Shown here: positions 3,919 to 60,120 of the stretch, piece after piece
Layout: every line of letters starts with the position of its first letter
How positions within the stretch are numbered: the first letter of the stretch is position 1
NCBI GenBank assembly: GCA_016793885.1
Contig: JAEUHE010000149.1
Location: 1-64,000, forward strand
Reading direction: 5' to 3'
Source of the DNA: Verrucomicrobiales bacterium
Lineage (GTDB): Bacteria; Verrucomicrobiota; Verrucomicrobiia; Limisphaerales; UBA11320
DNA: 64,000 bases
The notes under the pieces: model-generated
Databases searched by the model: none
What the model was told of the DNA's origin: nothing
The model's input: only the letters and a program-made list of their open reading frames with translations
Made by a program: the position numbers and the translations under genes

Positions 3919-4167
3919 GCGTGATGTGAATTGTGCGCAGCGTCAAAGCCCGGACGCTCATTGCATCTTTACCTCTTGATTCTGGAATCAACCTAATCTG
4001 TACCCCCCCCCCATTTGTCAAAATATTTTCAAAACTTTTTTCGAGCTATCTAAATATGATGCAGGAGTATCGAAAGTGCTAGTGCGGAATGGGTGCTGGG
4101 GCTGGACGGGAACTATCTGCTCCGATGACTGGGGGGGGGACGAGGGACGAGTTTCCGACGGAGGGGG

Positions 4168-4200
4168 CGATTACGATTACGATTACGATCACGATCACGA
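4168..4200. repeat. TTACGA hexanucleotide array
   Basis: CGATTACGATTACGATTACG continues into two TCACGA units, giving about five hexamer units. A shorter version of the same array (CGATTACGATTACGA) occurs at 36864-36878 inside another composite intergenic repeat, so this is part of a dispersed family and not only local slippage. Confidence 0.7.
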
Positions 4201-4222
4201 GGGGGAGGGAGAGATGTTGCCC

Positions 4223-4312
4223 GCGGATCACACGGAACACACGGATCAGGAACAGGATCCCTGAGCACATGAATTATTTCCCATCCGAGTCATCCGTGAA
4301 ATCCGTGGTTAC
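4223..4312. repeat. CACGGAT-type intergenic element, short copy
   Basis: The left end carries ACACGGATCAGG and the right end TCATCCGTGAAATCCGTGG, which are inverted relative to each other. The same right-end wording is found in the full copies at 16419-16580 and 40001-40160. This copy has a shorter, unrelated centre. Confidence 0.6.
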
Positions 4313-4408
4313 CTTTCCTGCTTCCCAGTTGGTTCCTCTCCGCGCCTTTGTGGCTTAGTGTGAGACCATCGGGTTAGGCCGTGCCCTTCTCTGGGTCACT
4401 CGTCACTC

Positions 4409-5618: not shown

Positions 5619-5671
5619 CCGTGGGCTCGTCAGGGCTCGACGGAGTCTCTCCCTACCCCCAATCGTCACAC
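5619..5671. repeat. Direct repeat, copy 1 (flanks the CotH gene)
   Basis: A 27-base block (5630-5656), containing GGGCTCGACGGAGTCTCTCC, is exactly repeated at 12613-12639, and similarity extends on both sides to about 50 bases. The two copies bracket the 6.7-kb CotH/lamin-tail gene in the same orientation. Confidence 0.8.
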
Positions 5672-12536: not shown

Positions 12537-12569
12537 AACCACGGATGGCACGGATCTCACGGATCAGGA
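12537..12569. repeat. CACGGAT-type element, half copy
   Basis: AACCACGGATGGCACGGATC and a third CACGGAT unit follow each other at 12537-12569. This matches the left arm of the full elements at 16419 and 40001; no right arm follows. Confidence 0.6.
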
Positions 12570-12601: not shown

Positions 12602-12656
12602 CCGTGGGCCCATCAGGGCTCGACGGAGTCTCTCCCTACCTCAAATCGAATGACAC
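12602..12656. repeat. Direct repeat, copy 2 (flanks the CotH gene)
   Basis: This is the second copy of the block at 5619-5671, identical over 27 bases (12613-12639) and similar beyond (CCGTGGGC at the left, AATCG and GACAC at the right). Confidence 0.8.
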
Positions 12657-16114: not shown

Positions 16115-16418
16115 GCTGGTTGGGCCAGGCGGGGGCCCACCGGGATGCCGAGCGGCGGGGCAGGGTCCTGCCGGGTACCGAGGCCTTCGTTACAGAATTG
16201 TAACGAAGATCCTCGTGATAAATGGAGGGCAGCGGCGTCTATCACGTATCGTCCTGCTGATGGCCGCCTCGATCCCGGGCTTGGACCCGGACTTCTTCAA
16301 GCGGCCGTCGGCCGGACTTGTTTTTTGTACGAGTTCATCCCCGCCCAAAGCAAAACATCCATCCGGTCAATTGGGGTAGAGAGGGGAAGCGCCTCCTAAT
16401 CCTAAGCAGGAGAATGGA
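16115..16418. other. Gene-free stretch between convergent genes
   Basis: About 300 bases between the terminator and the CACGGAT element. Short frames are present but have no recognisable composition. I see no clear structure beyond GC-rich imperfect inverted repeats around 16290-16315 (GCGGCCGTCGGCCG). Confidence 0.4.
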
Positions 16419-16580
16419 AACCACGGGATTTCACAGATGCCACGGATCCGCAAAGACTTGGAGGCCAGACCCTCATCACTCTGAGAGGGAGTGCGAACTC
16501 GTGCTCAAGAATGTCACAACGCCTTCTGAATCCGTGTTATCCGTGCAATCCGTGGTGAGTCCATCTCCGGTTCTAGGCTA
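16419..16580. repeat. CACGGAT-type palindromic-ended element, full copy 1
   Basis: The left arm (AACCACGGGATTTCACAGAT) and right arm (GAATCCGTGTTATCCGTGCA, then ATCCGTGG) are inverted. The centre shares CCTCATCACTC, GGGAGTGCGA and AAGAATGTC with the copy at 40001-40160. The conserved tail CCGGTTCTAGGCTA ends with the stop codon of the minus-strand pyruvate kinase-like gene (16578-16580). Confidence 0.8.
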
Positions 16581-18560
16581 ATGGGCATCGAAGTGAACGC
16601 CCCTGCCATGCGAAAGTGCCGATGCCACCAGTTTGGGACGAGGGTCGCGAACTCGGCGTGGTCCTGGTTGGATGACGGGGTTGAAACTCCGCGCCACCTC
16701 TAAGGATCGCAGCATCGACGCTTTCTTATTCTGATGCGCCTCCATCCGGCGCAATATACCATCCAAGGCTCGTACCGCCGCCACCAACTGTGGGCCCTTA
16801 TTCAGCATCACGCACTCCGCACGAACACCCATAGCGGCATCGGTTACCTCCGCGCGCGAGGGCAGACCGTCGCGGGCGAGACTCTCCAACACCTGAGTAG
16901 CCCAGATCACCGGCATGTGGGCGGCTTCGCAAACCCAAAGAATCTCCTCCTGTATCTCCGCCAATCGTTCGTAACCACACTCGACGGCAAGATCCCCGCG
17001 GGCGATCATCACTCCCACCACCGGACAGCTCATGGCAGCCAACAGTAAGTAGGGCAATTGTTCGAAAGCGCTACGGGTTTCGATTTTGAGTACAAGCCCC
17101 AGGCGCTCTCCCTGGAGACCCTTCAACTGGGCTTGAATGGCCTCAACGTCGGCAGGCGTCTGCACAAAGGAGTAACCCACCAGATCCGCGTTTGTGACCA
17201 CGAAGGGAAGATCTTCGACGTCCTTCTCGGTCAAGGCCCGAAGGCGGAGACGGCTGCCGGGAAAGTTTATGCCCTTGTCCGCCCAGAGTTTTTCGCCCTT
17301 CGCTCTGGCATGCACTATCCGAACCTTGAGCCGATCCGGACGTGCTGACTCGATGATGCCACCGATCTTCCCATCATCGAACCAAACTTCCTCACCGGCC
17401 TTCACATCCAGAAAGACCTCTGGAGCGGTGCAACCGATTCTCGCTGGACGGGAGACTCGCCCCCCGGGTGTAACGCGAGCAGGCCGTCCGGGCCTGAGGG
17501 AACGGCTCAGGTGCAGCAAGTCGCCGACCTTGAGCACGATCGGTTGCCCCTCCGGAGCGAGCGCCGACACGCATGTTTCCGATTCCTTCGGCCGCTTCTG
17601 CTTACGATCGTCTGTCCCCCGAATCAGGCGGAGTTTGGTCCCAGCTCCAATGAACGCGGTCTTGCTCGATTCGGCCCACCATCCACTTCCCTCACGGGCC
17701 ACGATCACCAAGAGTCGGCGCTTGGCGCGCAGATCGGTGAAACGGACAGCATCGCCGACTCTTAATCTCGACAACCATTCCTTCGGGACAGGAACTGTCG
17801 CAGCGGCGTTGCTGGATGGAGGCTCAGGGTGATCATCAACCGTCATCCAGATCTTCGCGGCCTTTACCACGCGCCCCATGGCGTCGCGACTAGGTTTCCA
17901 CTTAATGACCGCGTCACAGGACTCGATGGGGCCAGTCCGAATTTTGGGTCCGGCCAGGTCCATATGTATCCGGCAGTTGCGACCCACCTTGGTTTCCGCT
18001 TGCCGCAGGTTCTGAATCATTTGCGACCAGACCCGGGAATCATCGTGGGCACAATTGATTCTGAGGCAGTTCATTCCTGCCAGGAGCAATTCCTCCATCA
18101 ACAGCGGGCAGGTCGCCGCCTCCTCAGACATCGTCACCATGATGCGGACAAATCGCGGGGCAGGCTTTCGGCCTAACAACTCCTCCGCCCGCGTTTTCAA
18201 CAGAGATCGGCCCTCCCGAAAACTTACTTCTAGCGAACGAACCGCGGTCTGGCGCTTCTTCGAGAGCAAACTTTCCAAGATAGCGATGACTGAGTCGATA
18301 GTCGCCAGCACATGAGACTCAGCTCTTCCCAGGGATGATAGCCCCACTGCGGCCAACCCCTCTTGCAAGCTGCGCAAATCATGCTGGCGCATCGCGAGAT
18401 AGTGCACCAAATTCTTGGCACTGGCCAACTGGGTAGGATGCACCTGGCGCAGCAGACGTTCCGCCCGCCGTTCCGCCTGCTCAAGGTCTGAACGGAGCGA
18501 TGTCAGTTGCCGCCAGAGAAGATCCAGCAGCCCAGAATCCCAGTCGGGTGTCCCACTCAT
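16578..18560 (-). CDS. Pyruvate kinase-like protein with helical N-terminal region, lacking the C-terminal domain
   Basis: The 660-residue product (ATG at 18560; earlier in-frame starts only add a basic leader) begins with about 140 residues of charged helix, likely coiled coil (LRSDLEQAERRAERLL). A pyruvate kinase barrel follows from about 145: LRINCAH near 167 (family NFSHG), HMDLAGPKIRTGPI, an enlarged B-domain insertion, VWFDDGKIGG, LVLKIETR (family KIE), VMIARGDLAVECGYERL and VIWATQVLE near 557. The catalytic Lys, Glu, Asp and Thr positions therefore look present. It ends shortly after the barrel, without the C-terminal regulatory domain of standard pyruvate kinases. Phosphoenolpyruvate to pyruvate conversion is plausible but not proved; the wording APKIRTG in place of KGPEIRTG is atypical. 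It is divergent from an AAE transporter, and its stop codon lies in a dispersed repeat. Confidence 0.85.
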   Translation of the reverse strand: MSGTPDWDSGLLDLLWRQLTSLRSDLEQAERRAERLLRQVHPTQLASAKNLVHYLAMRQHDLRSLQEGLAAVGLSSLGRAESHVLATIDSVIAILESLLSKKRQTAVRSLEVSFREGRSLLKTRAEELLGRKPAPRFVRIMVTMSEEAATCPLLMEELLLAGMNCLRINCAHDDSRVWSQMIQNLRQAETKVGRNCRIHMDLAGPKIRTGPIESCDAVIKWKPSRDAMGRVVKAAKIWMTVDDHPEPPSSNAAATVPVPKEWLSRLRVGDAVRFTDLRAKRRLLVIVAREGSGWWAESSKTAFIGAGTKLRLIRGTDDRKQKRPKESETCVSALAPEGQPIVLKVGDLLHLSRSLRPGRPARVTPGGRVSRPARIGCTAPEVFLDVKAGEEVWFDDGKIGGIIESARPDRLKVRIVHARAKGEKLWADKGINFPGSRLRLRALTEKDVEDLPFVVTNADLVGYSFVQTPADVEAIQAQLKGLQGERLGLVLKIETRSAFEQLPYLLLAAMSCPVVGVMIARGDLAVECGYERLAEIQEEILWVCEAAHMPVIWATQVLESLARDGLPSRAEVTDAAMGVRAECVMLNKGPQLVAAVRALDGILRRMEAHQNKKASMLRSLEVARSFNPVIQPGPRRVRDPRPKLVASALSHGRGVHFDAH

Positions 18561-18730
18561 CGTGTGGTTCAATTTGTAGACAGTGAGTGGCAGCTTCACT
18601 GCTATTCGGTTACGAGTCCGTAACAGTCTCAGCGCGGTTCCGTGCTTGTCACGGCCTGCGTTTCGCCTCAGGATCCAGCTGGCGTGTGGCAAAATCCCCT
18701 GCCCCGCTTCCCCTTTTGTCCGTTCAATTT

Positions 18731-25596: not shown

Positions 25597-25669
25597 GGTT
25601 ATCGTGACAGCCCGACTCTAGTCAGAAACCGCGCGCCGGCGCAATGCACGGATTAGGGGGGGGTAGCGT

Positions 25670-25878
25670 GTGTGATTTGAAGTGGGTGAGGCTTGGTCTG
25701 TTGTACGGAGTTCCGCCTTTAGGCGGTCCCCTGAGGCTTGAGGATCATGGAAACGCTAGATCCTAAACCACTGGGCCAATTTCAGCGCCTTTTCCGCCTG
25801 AAGGCGGAACTCCATGCGCCCGACGATCGTTGGGTCCGCGGTTGGATAGTTCCCCGCCTCACCCACTTCTAATCACAC
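25670..25878. repeat. 209-bp nested inverted-repeat element between divergent operons
   Basis: The outer arms 25670-25692 and 25856-25878 are inverted copies with 22 of 23 matches (GTGTGATTTGAAGTGGGTGA at the left). Inside, 25707-25726 and 25794-25813 are inverted with 19 of 20 matches, and each of these is itself a small palindrome (CCGCCTTTAGGCGG). It encodes no protein. It occupies most of the 351-bp gap between two DUF1549/1553 genes, where the divergent promoters must lie. The size and ends resemble a miniature inverted-repeat element; no flanking target duplication was obvious. Confidence 0.8.
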
Positions 25879-25947
25879 CCGATTGGCTGGGGCCACTATG
25901 AATTTGCGTTGCCCACGGAACGTCTCAACCGGCACAATAGCACTCTC

Positions 25948-30120: not shown

Positions 30121-30355
30121 GACTGGATGTCAGTCCGAAGGGCTGTCCATGAACCAGGCCTCGTTACCTCGGCTTCTTCACTATCAACGGCTGTAGGGGA
30201 CGAGATCACTTCCTGGATCCGCTGCCTAGAACCCACAGGGTTCAAAGAAATTAGCCGGGCGATCGCAGATCCCCGGTCACCCGTTCCCATTTCACCGCAC
30301 CCCGCAGGGCGTGCCACGTCCCTTTCCCCGGTCAAAGGGACGGCCATAGGCTTGG

Positions 30356-30375
30356 TGGCTTAGTGTGAGACCATC
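30356..30375. repeat. 20-base block shared with 4351-4370
   Basis: TGGCTTAGTGTGAGACCATC is identical at both places, and both lie in gene-free DNA downstream of a minus-strand gene (ugd here, the glycosyltransferase there). Confidence 0.7.
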
Positions 30376-30408
30376 CGGCTCGCTGTGCTCGGAGCCGGGG
30401 AATCGTCC

Positions 30409-36747: not shown

Positions 36748-37027
36748 AGCAACACTCGTCACTCTCCTCGTGCCTGAGTTATGAGTTGGAGTGAGTGATG
36801 AGTGATGAGTTGCGGAACGGGGGATCGTCCGGGGACGGACGACGCTACAAGGGGGAGGAGAAGCGATTACGATTACGATGGGGATGGGGACAGGCAAGCT
36901 CCCTCACGCCCCCAACTCGTCACTCGTCACTCGTCACTCGTCACTCGTCACTCGTCACTCATCACTCTCCTAGCCCCCTCCAATCCGAACTTCCATTCCC
37001 CGGCACTTCTCTGCTAAACACCCGGCC
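36748..37027. repeat. Composite intergenic repeat between cinA and proB
   Basis: Directly after the cinA stop codon comes ACTCGTCACTCTCC (36753-36766), then GAGTGAGTGATGAGTGATG (from 36789), a CGATTACGATTACGA array (36864-36878) and a TCGTCAC array (36917-36965). The GAGTGATGAGT parts are inverted relative to ACTCGTCACTC and can form a long imperfect hairpin. The same components occur at 4168-4408. No gene is present. Confidence 0.75.
36917..36965. repeat. TCGTCAC heptanucleotide tandem array
   Basis: Six perfect TCGTCAC units followed by one TCATCAC variant (49 bases). Confidence 0.9.
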
Positions 37028-38830: not shown

Positions 38831-39943
38831 ATGGACCAACGTTATCAAAAGCTCGCCGAACTCCTGACTCAGTATTCGCTCAAGCTCAAACGCGGTGAAG
38901 TGGTCTTCATCGACGCCACGGATATCCCGGAGACCTTCTGCATCGAGATGGTCAGGGCCGTCCGACGCGCCGGGGCCCACCCCCTGATCGAACTGCGTCA
39001 AAGCAGAATCTCGCGCGAACTCCTGCTGGAGACGAACGAGGAACACGCCCGGCTCATCCGCGACGTGGAGATGTTTCGCATGAAAAAGGTCGACGCTTAC
39101 ATCGCGCTTCGCGGAAGCCAAAACGCGAATGAGTCGTCGGACGTCCCGGGAGCCCTTTCCTCCCTGTTCTCGCGAACATTGCGGCCAGTGCTCAATTATC
39201 GGGTCAACCAAACTCGATGGGTCGTGCTCCGATGGCCAACCCCGAGCATGGCGCAGGGCGCTGGAATGAGCACAGAAGCCTTCGACAACCTCTTCTTTGA
39301 CGTCTGCACCATGGACTACGGACGGATGGCCAAGGCCATGATCCCGCTCGAGCGGCGCATGAAGCGGGCGGACCAGGTCAGAATCGAGGGCCCGGGCACA
39401 GAGCTTAGTTTCAGCATCAAAGGCATCGGCGCGAAAATGTGCCGAGGCGATCGGAATATCCCCGACGGTGAAGTCTTCAGCTGCCCGGTCAAAGACTCGG
39501 TCAACGGCTACATCCAGTTCAACACCCCCACCATCTACGCCGGAACCCGCTTCGATAACATCCGGCTCGCGTTCCGCGATGGACGCATCGTGGAGGCCAC
39601 TGGCAGCAACTCCAAGCGTCTGAACGAGATTTTGGATACGGACCCCGGAGCACGTTATATCGGGGAGTTCTCGCTTGGGTTCAATCCTTACATCCTAAAT
39701 CCCATGTGCGACATTCTCTTTGATGAGAAGATCGCCGGGTCCTTCCATTTCACACCTGGTCAGGCTTATGAGGGTATCGCCGACAACGGCAACCGCTCGG
39801 CGGTCCATTGGGATATGGTGATGATTCAGCGCGCAGACTGGGGCGGCGGAGAGATCTGGTTTGACGACGAATTAATCCGCAAGGACGGCCTCTTTTTGCC
39901 GAAAGATCTGCGCGGCCTGAACCCAGACCAGCTGAAGCGCTAA
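38831..39943 (+). CDS. M29 family aminopeptidase
   Basis: 370 residues from the ATG at 38831; in-frame extension to 38750 overlaps mazG. The family is the thermophilic-type (AmpS/PepS) metallo-aminopeptidases, cytosolic enzymes using two Zn or Co ions. Signatures are [20 protein letters not shown], the ligand-bearing [30 protein letters not shown] and [11 protein letters not shown], with ligands expected among these E, H and D residues. Substrate range is broad for the family. It lies 19 bp after mazG in a likely operon with proB. Confidence 0.93.
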
Positions 39944-40000
39944 TCTCCACCTGGGGAAACGGAGCTGGCCGCTGATCTTTATCCTGAAAACGGCGGTTGT

Positions 40001-40160
40001 AACCACGGATTTCGCGGATCGCACGGATGGGCGAAGATTTGAAGAGATCACCTCATCACTCGGAAGGAGAGTGCGATCTGTCGTTGAAGAATGTCCCAAA
40101 CCCTTCCGAATCCGTGTCATCCGTTCAATCCGTGGTTAGTGCATTCCCGGTTTTCGGTTA
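40001..40160. repeat. CACGGAT-type palindromic-ended element, full copy 2
   Basis: The left arm AACCACGGATTTCGCGGATC and right arm GAATCCGTGTCATCCGTTCA, then ATCCGTGG, are inverted. The centre CCTCATCACTC, GGAGAGTGCGA, AAGAATGTC matches copy 1 at 16419-16580. The tail CCGGTTTTCGGTTA ends with the stop codon of the minus-strand PrsW gene (40158-40160), the same relation as in copy 1. Confidence 0.8.
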
Positions 40161-41249
40161 AATAGTTTCTTCCCCCCGAGCCCGCCCTTCGCGCAAAAGG
40201 CGGTCCAATTCCATACTGCGCGCCATATAGAGATTCAGCGCGAAGACGCTGAACACTGCCACAAAGAGGCCGAATCCATGCCGGGAGAAGGTGTTGTAGG
40301 TACCGTGCAACACTGCTGGCAAACCAATGGCGGTCATCCAAAGCCCCACTCGACGTTCCGGGTAGCGCAGAGCGAAACCCAGGAAGTATCCGGCGATGCC
40401 AGTCCAAACCGCGTGTAGAAAGGGAAGCGACGTCAGTCGGAGGACGTTGAGAAGGTAATAACCCTGGGCACTCTGGGTCATGTTCAGATTGAACTGCCAC
40501 TGGTAGCGCACCCCCTCGAAGAGCCCAAAGCCCAGGCCAGCCATCAGTCCGTAGAAGAGCATGGTGTGCGGTGAGAGTTGATCCTTCCGCCGAAACATAA
40601 TGATGAGCACCATTGCCTTGCACAACTCTTCAGCAACTCCCACTCCGCCGACAAATCCGATCCAGGTTCGAAGCAAGGAAGGCGATTGAATCCAGGGTAG
40701 AAGGAATCCGGTAGGTGTGAGCCGATACACCCCATAGAGAATCAGAGTGCAGCTGAGAGCACTGCCAAACAGACAGAAAGCGGCGTCTCGCAGTTTTACG
40801 TCCGGAGCCGGAAACGCGTGATAGAAAAACCCCCCCCAGAGCAGCGAGAAGTAGACTGCCATTGCCCAGTACGCCTTCTGAATCCCCGCGTCCTCGCCAA
40901 AATAGGCGAGGATTGCCAAGGGCATGAGGCCTACCCCGGCGATCAATAGAGCCCGACGCTGTCGCAACCATCGGCCCGACCTGAGCTCATCCCATGGCAC
41001 CAACAAATGAGCCGTCAAACGCCGGAGGTCTTCCTTGGGTGCGACTGAGGAGCTAGGCCCCGTGGTAAAGGCATCGAAAAAGCGCCGATCGCGGTCCAGA
41101 AGCTCCCCGAGCTTGACCCGCACTGCTCCGTCCTCGGATTCGACCGGAGTGTTAGGTCCGATCGCCCCCTTGCGGTAAAGACTGACAAGCTCGTCAACGG
41201 TCCAGGGTCCCTGGGCCGGCTGATCAGGAATAATGGAATAGTAGCGCAC
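40158..41249 (-). CDS. PrsW-like intramembrane protease with N-terminal GYF_2 domain
   Basis: 363 residues from a GTG start. Residues 1-55 form a GYF_2/DUF4339-like domain (YYSIIPDQPAQGPWTVDELV). After a polar linker there are about eight membrane segments from residue 100. PrsW signatures are GVGVAEELCKAMVLIIMF (near 205, EE..K), GLGFGLFEGVRYQW, HAVWTGIAGYFLGFALR and HGTYNTF, giving the expected Glu and His metal ligands inside the membrane. PrsW in Bacillus cleaves anti-sigma factors, but the substrate here is unknown. GYF-like domains bind proline-rich segments, so substrate recruitment is a reasonable inference. Its stop codon lies inside a dispersed repeat and it is convergent with the aminopeptidase. 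Confidence 0.85.
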   Translation of the reverse strand: MRYYSIIPDQPAQGPWTVDELVSLYRKGAIGPNTPVESEDGAVRVKLGELLDRDRRFFDAFTTGPSSSVAPKEDLRRLTAHLLVPWDELRSGRWLRQRRALLIAGVGLMPLAILAYFGEDAGIQKAYWAMAVYFSLLWGGFFYHAFPAPDVKLRDAAFCLFGSALSCTLILYGVYRLTPTGFLLPWIQSPSLLRTWIGFVGGVGVAEELCKAMVLIIMFRRKDQLSPHTMLFYGLMAGLGFGLFEGVRYQWQFNLNMTQSAQGYYLLNVLRLTSLPFLHAVWTGIAGYFLGFALRYPERRVGLWMTAIGLPAVLHGTYNTFSRHGFGLFVAVFSVFALNLYMARSMELDRLLREGRARGEETI

Positions 41250-59388: not shown

Positions 59389-60120
59389 ATGCTCACTGCA
59401 TCCGAAGTCAAACGCCTCAACGAACGGTTCGACGTAGCTCCAACTCAGGAAATCCTGGCTTGGGCTTGGGAAAAGTTCGGCGCGCGCGCCGCTATCGGCA
59501 CGAGTTTTCAGGGGGCTGGGCTCGTGATGATGCACCTGGCCAAGGCCCATGGGCTCCCGTTCCCCGTTTTCACAGTAGATACCAATCTGCTCTTCCCCGA
59601 AACCTACGCTCTCAAGCGCCGGCTAGAGGACTTCTTTGGAGCGCCCATTGAAGGTCTCCAACCCGACCTCACCCTCAAACAGCAGGAGGAAGCTCAAGGG
59701 CCTGAACTCTGGAAACGGAACCCAGACTTGTGCTGCACCATGCGCAAGGTCATGCCCCTGCAAGCTAAGCTCTCGGATCTACACTGCTGGATTACCGGAC
59801 TCCGCCGCCAGCAATCTGCCACCCGATCCGAGATCGGGATCGTCGAGGTCTATGTGTTCGATGAGTCCGAGGGACGAGACATCGTCAAACTCAATCCCAT
59901 GGCCAATTGGAGCCGGGATGCAGTCTGGAAATACCTGCATGAACACGGGATACCCTACAACCCGCTCCACGACCAAGGCTATCGCTCCATCGGATGCCAA
60001 CCCTGCACAGAAAAGTCGGCGGGCGGCGAAAATGAGCGAGCCGGCCGCTGGACCGGCTTCAACAAGGTCGAGTGCGGTATCCACACCTTCCTGCCCAAAA
60101 AGGTCGATTTTCAGATCTGA
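59389..60120 (+). CDS. cysH: APS-type CysH reductase
   Basis: 243 residues from the ATG at 59389. It reduces activated sulfate to sulfite with thioredoxin. The iron-sulfur signature of APS reductases is complete: CC at 115-116 (DLCCTMRK) and CxxC at 203/206 (IGCQPCTEK), with the catalytic Cys229 in KVECGIH. Classic PAPS reductases lack the paired cysteines, so the substrate is likely APS, although some members accept PAPS as well. A longer in-frame start (59302) would overlap cysI and lacks conservation. cysD follows 22 bp later. Confidence 0.94.
   Translation: MLTASEVKRLNERFDVAPTQEILAWAWEKFGARAAIGTSFQGAGLVMMHLAKAHGLPFPVFTVDTNLLFPETYALKRRLEDFFGAPIEGLQPDLTLKQQEEAQGPELWKRNPDLCCTMRKVMPLQAKLSDLHCWITGLRRQQSATRSEIGIVEVYVFDESEGRDIVKLNPMANWSRDAVWKYLHEHGIPYNPLHDQGYRSIGCQPCTEKSAGGENERAGRWTGFNKVECGIHTFLPKKVDFQI

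Follow-up and report, generated by a model that had tools for sequence, protein, structure and literature searches.

A dispersed terminal-inverted-repeat element of a Verrucomicrobiales genome, probably mobile and MITE-like, that often adjoins stop codons

The window, that is, the whole stretch of 64,000 nucleotides analysed (positions 1 to 64,000 of contig JAEUHE010000149.1), harboured two copies of a dispersed repeat, hereafter family A, each adjoining the stop codon of a gene on the minus strand. Copy 1 (177 bp; 16401..16577, plus strand), delimited by sequence and alignment with a profile score of 183, began with CCTAAG at 16401 and finished with TAGG at 16577, and it comprised a tail, three iterons, a centre, three inverted iterons and an inverted tail. 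In particular, its left terminal inverted repeat (16401..16446, plus strand) consisted of the 18-bp tail CCTAAGCAGGAGAATGGA and then the iterons, and its right one (16530..16577, minus strand) of the inverted iterons ATCCGTGTTATCCGTGCAATCCGTGG and the tail. The target duplication CTAAT appeared on the left (16396..16400) and on the right (16578..16582), where its first three bases were the TAG stop (16578-16580) of a gene encoding a pyruvate kinase barrel (16578..18599, minus strand; gene call and Pfam PF00224), whose relatives were distant (33% identity). Copy 2 (175 bp; 39983..40157, plus strand; sequence, profile score 173) began with CCTGAA at 39983 and finished with TCGG at 40157, and was flanked on the left by TTTAT (39978..39982), which agreed with the TNA consensus, and on the right by TTAAA (40158..40162), the first three bases of which were the TAA stop (40158-40160) of a PrsW-like protease gene (40158..41249, minus strand; Pfam PF13367). 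Relatives of the latter in genomes of the same genus were 55-60% identical, and their ends lay no more than about 10 residues from that of the window protein, while the DNA downstream of them was unrelated and lacked the element. Thus, the PrsW gene naturally ends there, and homologues ending elsewhere, which would have spoken against a genuine gene end, were not seen in those genomes.

The original prediction had proposed two similar full copies at 16419-16580 and 40001-40160, with inverted AACCACGGA/ATCCGTGG ends and a stop codon within their last bases. Both copies and the inverted ends were found, and the search of the genome placed the family far beyond chance, but the element begins 18 bp to the left of the proposed start and stops 3 bp short of the proposed end. 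The stop codons do adjoin both copies, with Pfam matches supporting both genes, but they sit in the duplicated target, outside the element: the supposed tail CCGGTTCTAGGCTA was made up of half of the terminal inverted repeat (CCGGTTCTAGG) and the first 3 bp of the CTAAT duplication. As for the two proposed partial copies, they had only the iteron core in common with the full copies, and neither the tails nor the interior. One was a related short element of 90 bp with inverted iteron cores and other tails and centre (4220..4309), and the other a single iteron core (CACGGAT three times; 12538..12564, plus strand) for which no partner was found. Other repeats were also present in the window. An array of ATTACG-like hexamers (4160-4205) adjoined the iteron repeat at 4220, with the same neighbours in another contig (C154, locus L048), and a 28-bp repeat at 4346-4373 and 30351-30378 (minus strand, CACACTAAGCCACAAAG) looked like a second iteron word. 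Moreover, a 47-bp repeat, CCGTGGGCYCRTCAGGGCTCGACGGAGTCTCTCCCTACC, occurred at 5619-5665 and 12602-12648 (91% identical), with similar text near other iteron elements, and a tandem 7-bp repeat (ACTCGTC) was located at 36915-36967.

When all 274 contigs of the genome (8.7 Mb) were searched with a 160-bp copy, a total of 35 places matched with E<1e-10, most of them 73-84% identical, and this single genome held over 35 diverged copies of family A, which had their boundaries in common. The aligned copies defined an element of ~175 bp with terminal inverted repeats of ~48 bp, each consisting of a tail of 18-20 bp and three ~9-bp CACGGATNN iterons. Among the 17 long copies aligned, the order was a tail (CCTAAAAAGGAGAATGGA or CCTGAAAACGGCGGTTGT), the three ~9-bp iterons AACCACGGATTTCGCGGATGACACGGAT, a centre that was conserved over ~80 bp, and finally the iterons in inverse orientation with the inverted tail TAATCCATTCCCGGTTTTAGG. 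Other subfamilies of the same genome had the iterons in common with family A, but not the centre. The median identity between copies was only 72%, so that family A is mostly old, while the closest pairs reached 93%, one of the two being a segmental duplicate in contig C14. Furthermore, Rfam gave no match at the element.

The bases next to the element were in turn found to belong to a target duplication of ~5 bp with the consensus YTNAN. Among the 21 copies with both ends readable, which were those taken into the comparison, the left and right 5-bp flanks agreed at 65 positions, compared to 51.7 for shuffled pairs (P=0.00025), four flank pairs were perfect against 0.5 expected (P=0.0013), and TNA (as NTNAN) was present in 34 of the 42 flanks. 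Many of these duplications were imperfect, even among the least diverged copies. An empty site was found in the same genome: within a 2.7-kb segmental duplication of contig C14 (58160-61185), a family-A element was nested in a repeat of another family (family B) and split it in both duplicated copies, with an intact family-B paralogue (59573-59688) lying between them, 1.3 kb away, that aligned across both halves of the split repeat. The overlap was TTTAC, which appeared on both sides in one copy, while the other had TTAC as its right flank. The split repeat and its intact paralogue therefore establish that the family-A element inserted there, and family A is an element that inserted at ~5-bp T/A sites and duplicated them.

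Gene ends were analysed in 2.2 Mb of contigs, which were chosen to contain copies and in which genes were called by a home-made model of in-frame hexamers (87% coding). No predicted gene contained any of the long copies analysed, and the flanking gene ends were 3′ ends in 42 of 54 cases and 5′ ends in 12 of 54 (binomial P=5e-5). Of the 28 independent long copies, 11 had the stop codon of a flanking gene within the duplicated flank or adjoining it, compared to 8.4% of the TNA sites at which an insertion would leave genes unbroken (P=8.5e-6), and Pfam domains were present in 9 of the 11 genes concerned. These figures bear out the suggestion that insertion favours gene ends. The enrichment at stop codons that the original prediction had named as its support also emerged, but without a single orientation, as the stop adjoined the left end in seven copies and the right end in four; the common orientation relative to the gene thus held for the two window copies and was mixed across the genome. 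Whichever base stands in the middle, TNA (TAA, TGA, TTA or TCA) reads as a stop codon on one of the two strands. Hence, much of the coincidence with stop codons arises from this property of the target together with survival near gene 3′ ends, and most of the excess at stop codons follows from the preference for those ends. Of the 19 copies at most 60 bp away from a gene 3′ end, 11 were at the stop, compared to 32% of the TNA sites in this range (P=0.018), which is a modest excess; an extra preference for stop codons as such is possible, though weakly supported.

Two other explanations of this location were considered. That the coincidence was due to chance, or that the stop was carried in the element's own tail, would be conceivable from the two window copies, since TNA sites are common and two cases alone could be luck, yet it appears highly improbable given the 11 copies at stop codons, the stop bases that varied between copies while matching across each copy in the duplicated flank, and the empty site, which assigns the duplicated bases to the target. 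A role as a selected 3′-UTR structure or transcription terminator, with the hairpin acting on the upstream mRNA, had also been put forward, and the bias of the copies towards gene 3′ ends would suit it. In addition, the RNAs of both window copies folded far better than shuffled sequences (z of -4.99 and -4.88), and for the Yersinia YPAL repeats, joint expression with the genes upstream and a possible influence on these genes have been reported (PMC2229807). However, a strong fold is expected of any long terminal inverted repeat, the covariation term was ~0, with a compensatory change in only 3 of 30 pairs, and no terminator-like site (a GC stem followed by a U run) was found near the copy at 40 kb (window positions 39800-40400). 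Moreover, copies were found beside stops in either orientation and several lay more than 100 bp from any gene 3′ end. The selected structure or terminator is accordingly unlikely, although the element may have a secondary effect on the mRNA.

Instead, family A is very probably a MITE-like, non-autonomous mobile element of ~175 bp with terminal inverted repeats, which duplicates YTNAN targets. It presented several features of such elements, namely terminal inverted repeats, a target duplication, a short length (175 bp), the lack of a transposase gene and a multicopy state. An enzyme acting in trans would cut a TNA-centred site, and the subsequent fill-in would duplicate the target. Where this site is the stop of a gene, the gene would keep a complete stop and the insertion would be harmless and retained, whereas insertions in genes or promoters would be purged, and both effects together would give rise to the excess at stop codons. 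The triple CACGGATNN iterons would probably serve as binding sites for the mobilising enzyme or a partner of it, for which there were two candidates: an IS1380-type transposase, on account of the CC...GG termini and the 5-bp duplication, and the product of a gene of the same genome (L300) that is flanked by the same iteron word and encodes a PD-(D/E)XK-like protein of the GxxExxY family.

The distribution of the repeat differed between the full element and its core. The full family-A element was absent from four genomes of the same genus and, outside its own genome, from 293 genomes sampled within the order, so its spread is lineage-specific. A total of 67 of these 293 genomes had a match, its own genome included, but the matches elsewhere were short and essentially limited to the iteron core of ~28 bp. 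An exact scan for the core in 84,980 species found it mainly in Verrucomicrobiota and Planctomycetota, and also in one genome of Acidobacteria and one of Prevotella, mostly in inverted pairs that spanned 64-423 bp. Around the CACGGAT elements of other genomes, neither a target duplication nor an inverted tail was seen, and no bias towards 3′ ends was detected (57:61), with gene calls being less reliable there. Tails and duplication are therefore features of family A and not of the core in general, and mobility of the core alone may differ from that of family A. No description of CACGGAT repeats was found in the open-access literature, the strings of the core sequence included.

The inverted core pair of 423 bp held an open reading frame between the cores in two genomes, and its product was assigned to the GxxExxY family (TIGR04256, E=2.5e-36; PF13366, PD-(D/E)XK, E=5e-34). 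Such a frame lay between two CACGGAT cores in three loci (L255, L260 and L263), although L255 and L260 were discarded as independent insertions because their right flanks were homologous, and they probably represent one old locus. In the loci selected by the core, all five GxxExxY genes were within 60 bp of it. A comparison independent of the motif, in which the downstream flank was reverse-complemented and aligned with the upstream flank in the GxxExxY loci of the order (score of at least 28), detected inverted arms around 43 of 52 GxxExxY genes and 3 of 47 other genes of the same loci (P=1.5e-15). The arms were self-similar at a lag of 9 bp, and their words varied by locus (CACGAAG, CACAGAG, ACAGGATTA, CGCAAAG, CGCTAAT, CGCGGAG and CACGGAT). 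Family A has its triple ~9-bp inverted iterons in common with the GxxExxY-iteron elements. Of 116 genomes sampled from the order, 91 had GxxExxY genes. The genome of the window had three of them, and the one at L300 was bracketed by AACCACGGAT-type iterons like those of family A. The other two (L301 in contig C17 and L302 in contig C253) were flanked by inverted repeats of the CGCGGAGAC and CGCAAAG types.

Homologues of the L300 protein that were picked by protein similarity alone from 387 genomes of the phylum mostly had arms of the C(A/G)CGGAT type; this looser word fitted most arms as judged by eye, whereas the strict CACGGAT core separated the nuclease clades only to the extent of 11 of 29 against 5 of 52 loci (P=0.003). 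A Mantel comparison of 73 loci related the similarity of the arms to that of the proteins (r=0.43, P=0.0005), with the change occurring stepwise at a protein identity of ~50%. The nuclease clades and their iteron words go together, a correlation that common descent of the gene and its flanks could also produce. P-D, D-x-K and QxxxY motifs are expected of the PD-(D/E)XK-like nuclease superfamily, and the L255 protein had the residues P65-D66 and D76-x-K78 and a QxxxY motif. Only one of five GxxExxY structure models was confident (pLDDT of 88, against 52-61 for the others), and this best model, of the L255 protein, resembled the Cas4 nuclease SSO0001 with a Z of 10.3 and, with a Z of 6-8, Holliday-junction resolvases of archaea, while a sequence search of the PDB gave no significant match. 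Descriptions of GxxExxY genes flanked by repeats were not found in the open-access literature; one paper there mentions the family in passing beside a reverse transcriptase (PMC8934634).

Taken from the sequences, these associations suggest a nuclease-repeat partnership, in which the recognition and mobilisation of the iterons would fall to GxxExxY proteins and family A would depend on a nuclease of the L300 type, in the manner of REPINs and RAYTs. This reading is tentative: the flanking by iterons of 9-bp period, the frames between CACGGAT cores, the word shared by homologues chosen on protein alone, the correlation of protein and iterons, the PD-(D/E)XK-type fold predicted for the L255 protein and the L300-type gene with the iteron word of family A in its own genome all argue for it, but the generic iteron elements lack a target duplication, the L300 locus lacks the extra tails of family A, and the association might be regulatory or simple co-inheritance. 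Termini of the CC...GG type are typical of the IS1380 family at large. A similar degree of doubt applies to family A being a MITE of an IS1380-like DDE transposon with the iterons as incidental cargo, for which the termini CC(T)...(A)GG and the T/A-rich 5-bp duplication speak, together with the IS1380 transposases of the same genome, one of them with CCCGAAC/GTTCGGG ends adjoining TTTAA; a characterised IS1380 member likewise produces 5-bp duplications (PMC3281130 Table 2). Against it, family A has no transposase within the element and no IS1380 copy of the assembly had its terminal sequence. Two intact and two partial IS1380 genes were examined as parents, but the ends of the L239/L240 genes differed, and a 12-bp resemblance of L239 to the family-A end was restricted to one end and failed at the other. 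Transposition of family A by an IS1380-type enzyme and by a GxxExxY enzyme is thus considered about equally likely.

No autonomous copy with family-A tails (CCTAAAACCGGGAATGG ends) was found in the searched parts of the 274-contig assembly. Five genes between long-range pairs of ends were inspected, and none was a transposase by its sequence; a Doc-like gene (L059, judged by eye) was also dismissed, as its one degenerate end was considered coincidental. As a separate observation, nested inverted repeats with GGAGTTCCGCCTTTAGGCGG occupied window positions 25667-25881, and the same sequence recurred at numerous further places and flanked the IS1380 transposase gene of contig C186 (L239) on either side.

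Regarding known systems, REPs have a Y1 transposase as their partner. Six Y1 transposase genes were found in the genome, none with an iteron core within its flanks of ~1.5 kb, so a RAYT/REPIN system was rejected. Family A resembles REPINs in having two inverted short words around a variable centre and in having as candidate partner a single gene that those words flank as well, but its word consists of three direct iterons, whereas PMC3733652 describes REPs as short palindromes tagged GTAG or CGTC. The RUP (IS630-Spn1) and Correia/NEMIS MITEs are likewise short and non-coding, with terminal inverted repeats, target duplication and presumed mobilisation in trans, but RUP has a TA target and a known parent IS (PMC2229807), while the target of family A is YTNAN. 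Mobile repeats at gene ends are already known from YPAL and ERIC (PMC2229807). YPAL/RU-2 (168 bp), an intergenic palindromic mobile repeat of Yersinia with target duplications and empty and filled sites, is similar to family A, but by its description the inverted repeats are internal and the duplications span 3 to 26 bp (PMC2229807), in contrast to the terminal repeats, ~5-bp duplication, YTNAN target and triple iterons found here. If an element duplicates TNA upon insertion, a stop codon can serve as its target at no cost, which is a simple account of a puzzling coincidence. The YPAL repeats reportedly tend to sit just downstream of stop codons (De Gregorio 2006).

Finally, these common and unnamed dispersed repeats become linked to the GxxExxY proteins, a large family of unknown function whose genes are common in the order and almost absent from the open-access literature. 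It might be, although this is a tentative proposal, that GxxExxY proteins are the recombination enzymes of widespread undescribed mobile elements, each lineage recognising its own triple 9-bp word set as inverted ends, and that the many short iteron palindromes of Verrucomicrobiota, Planctomycetota and other groups, those of the window included, are non-autonomous satellites of them. If nuclease and word are indeed cognate, they would provide natural pairs of protein-DNA specificity and a testable origin for the repeats.
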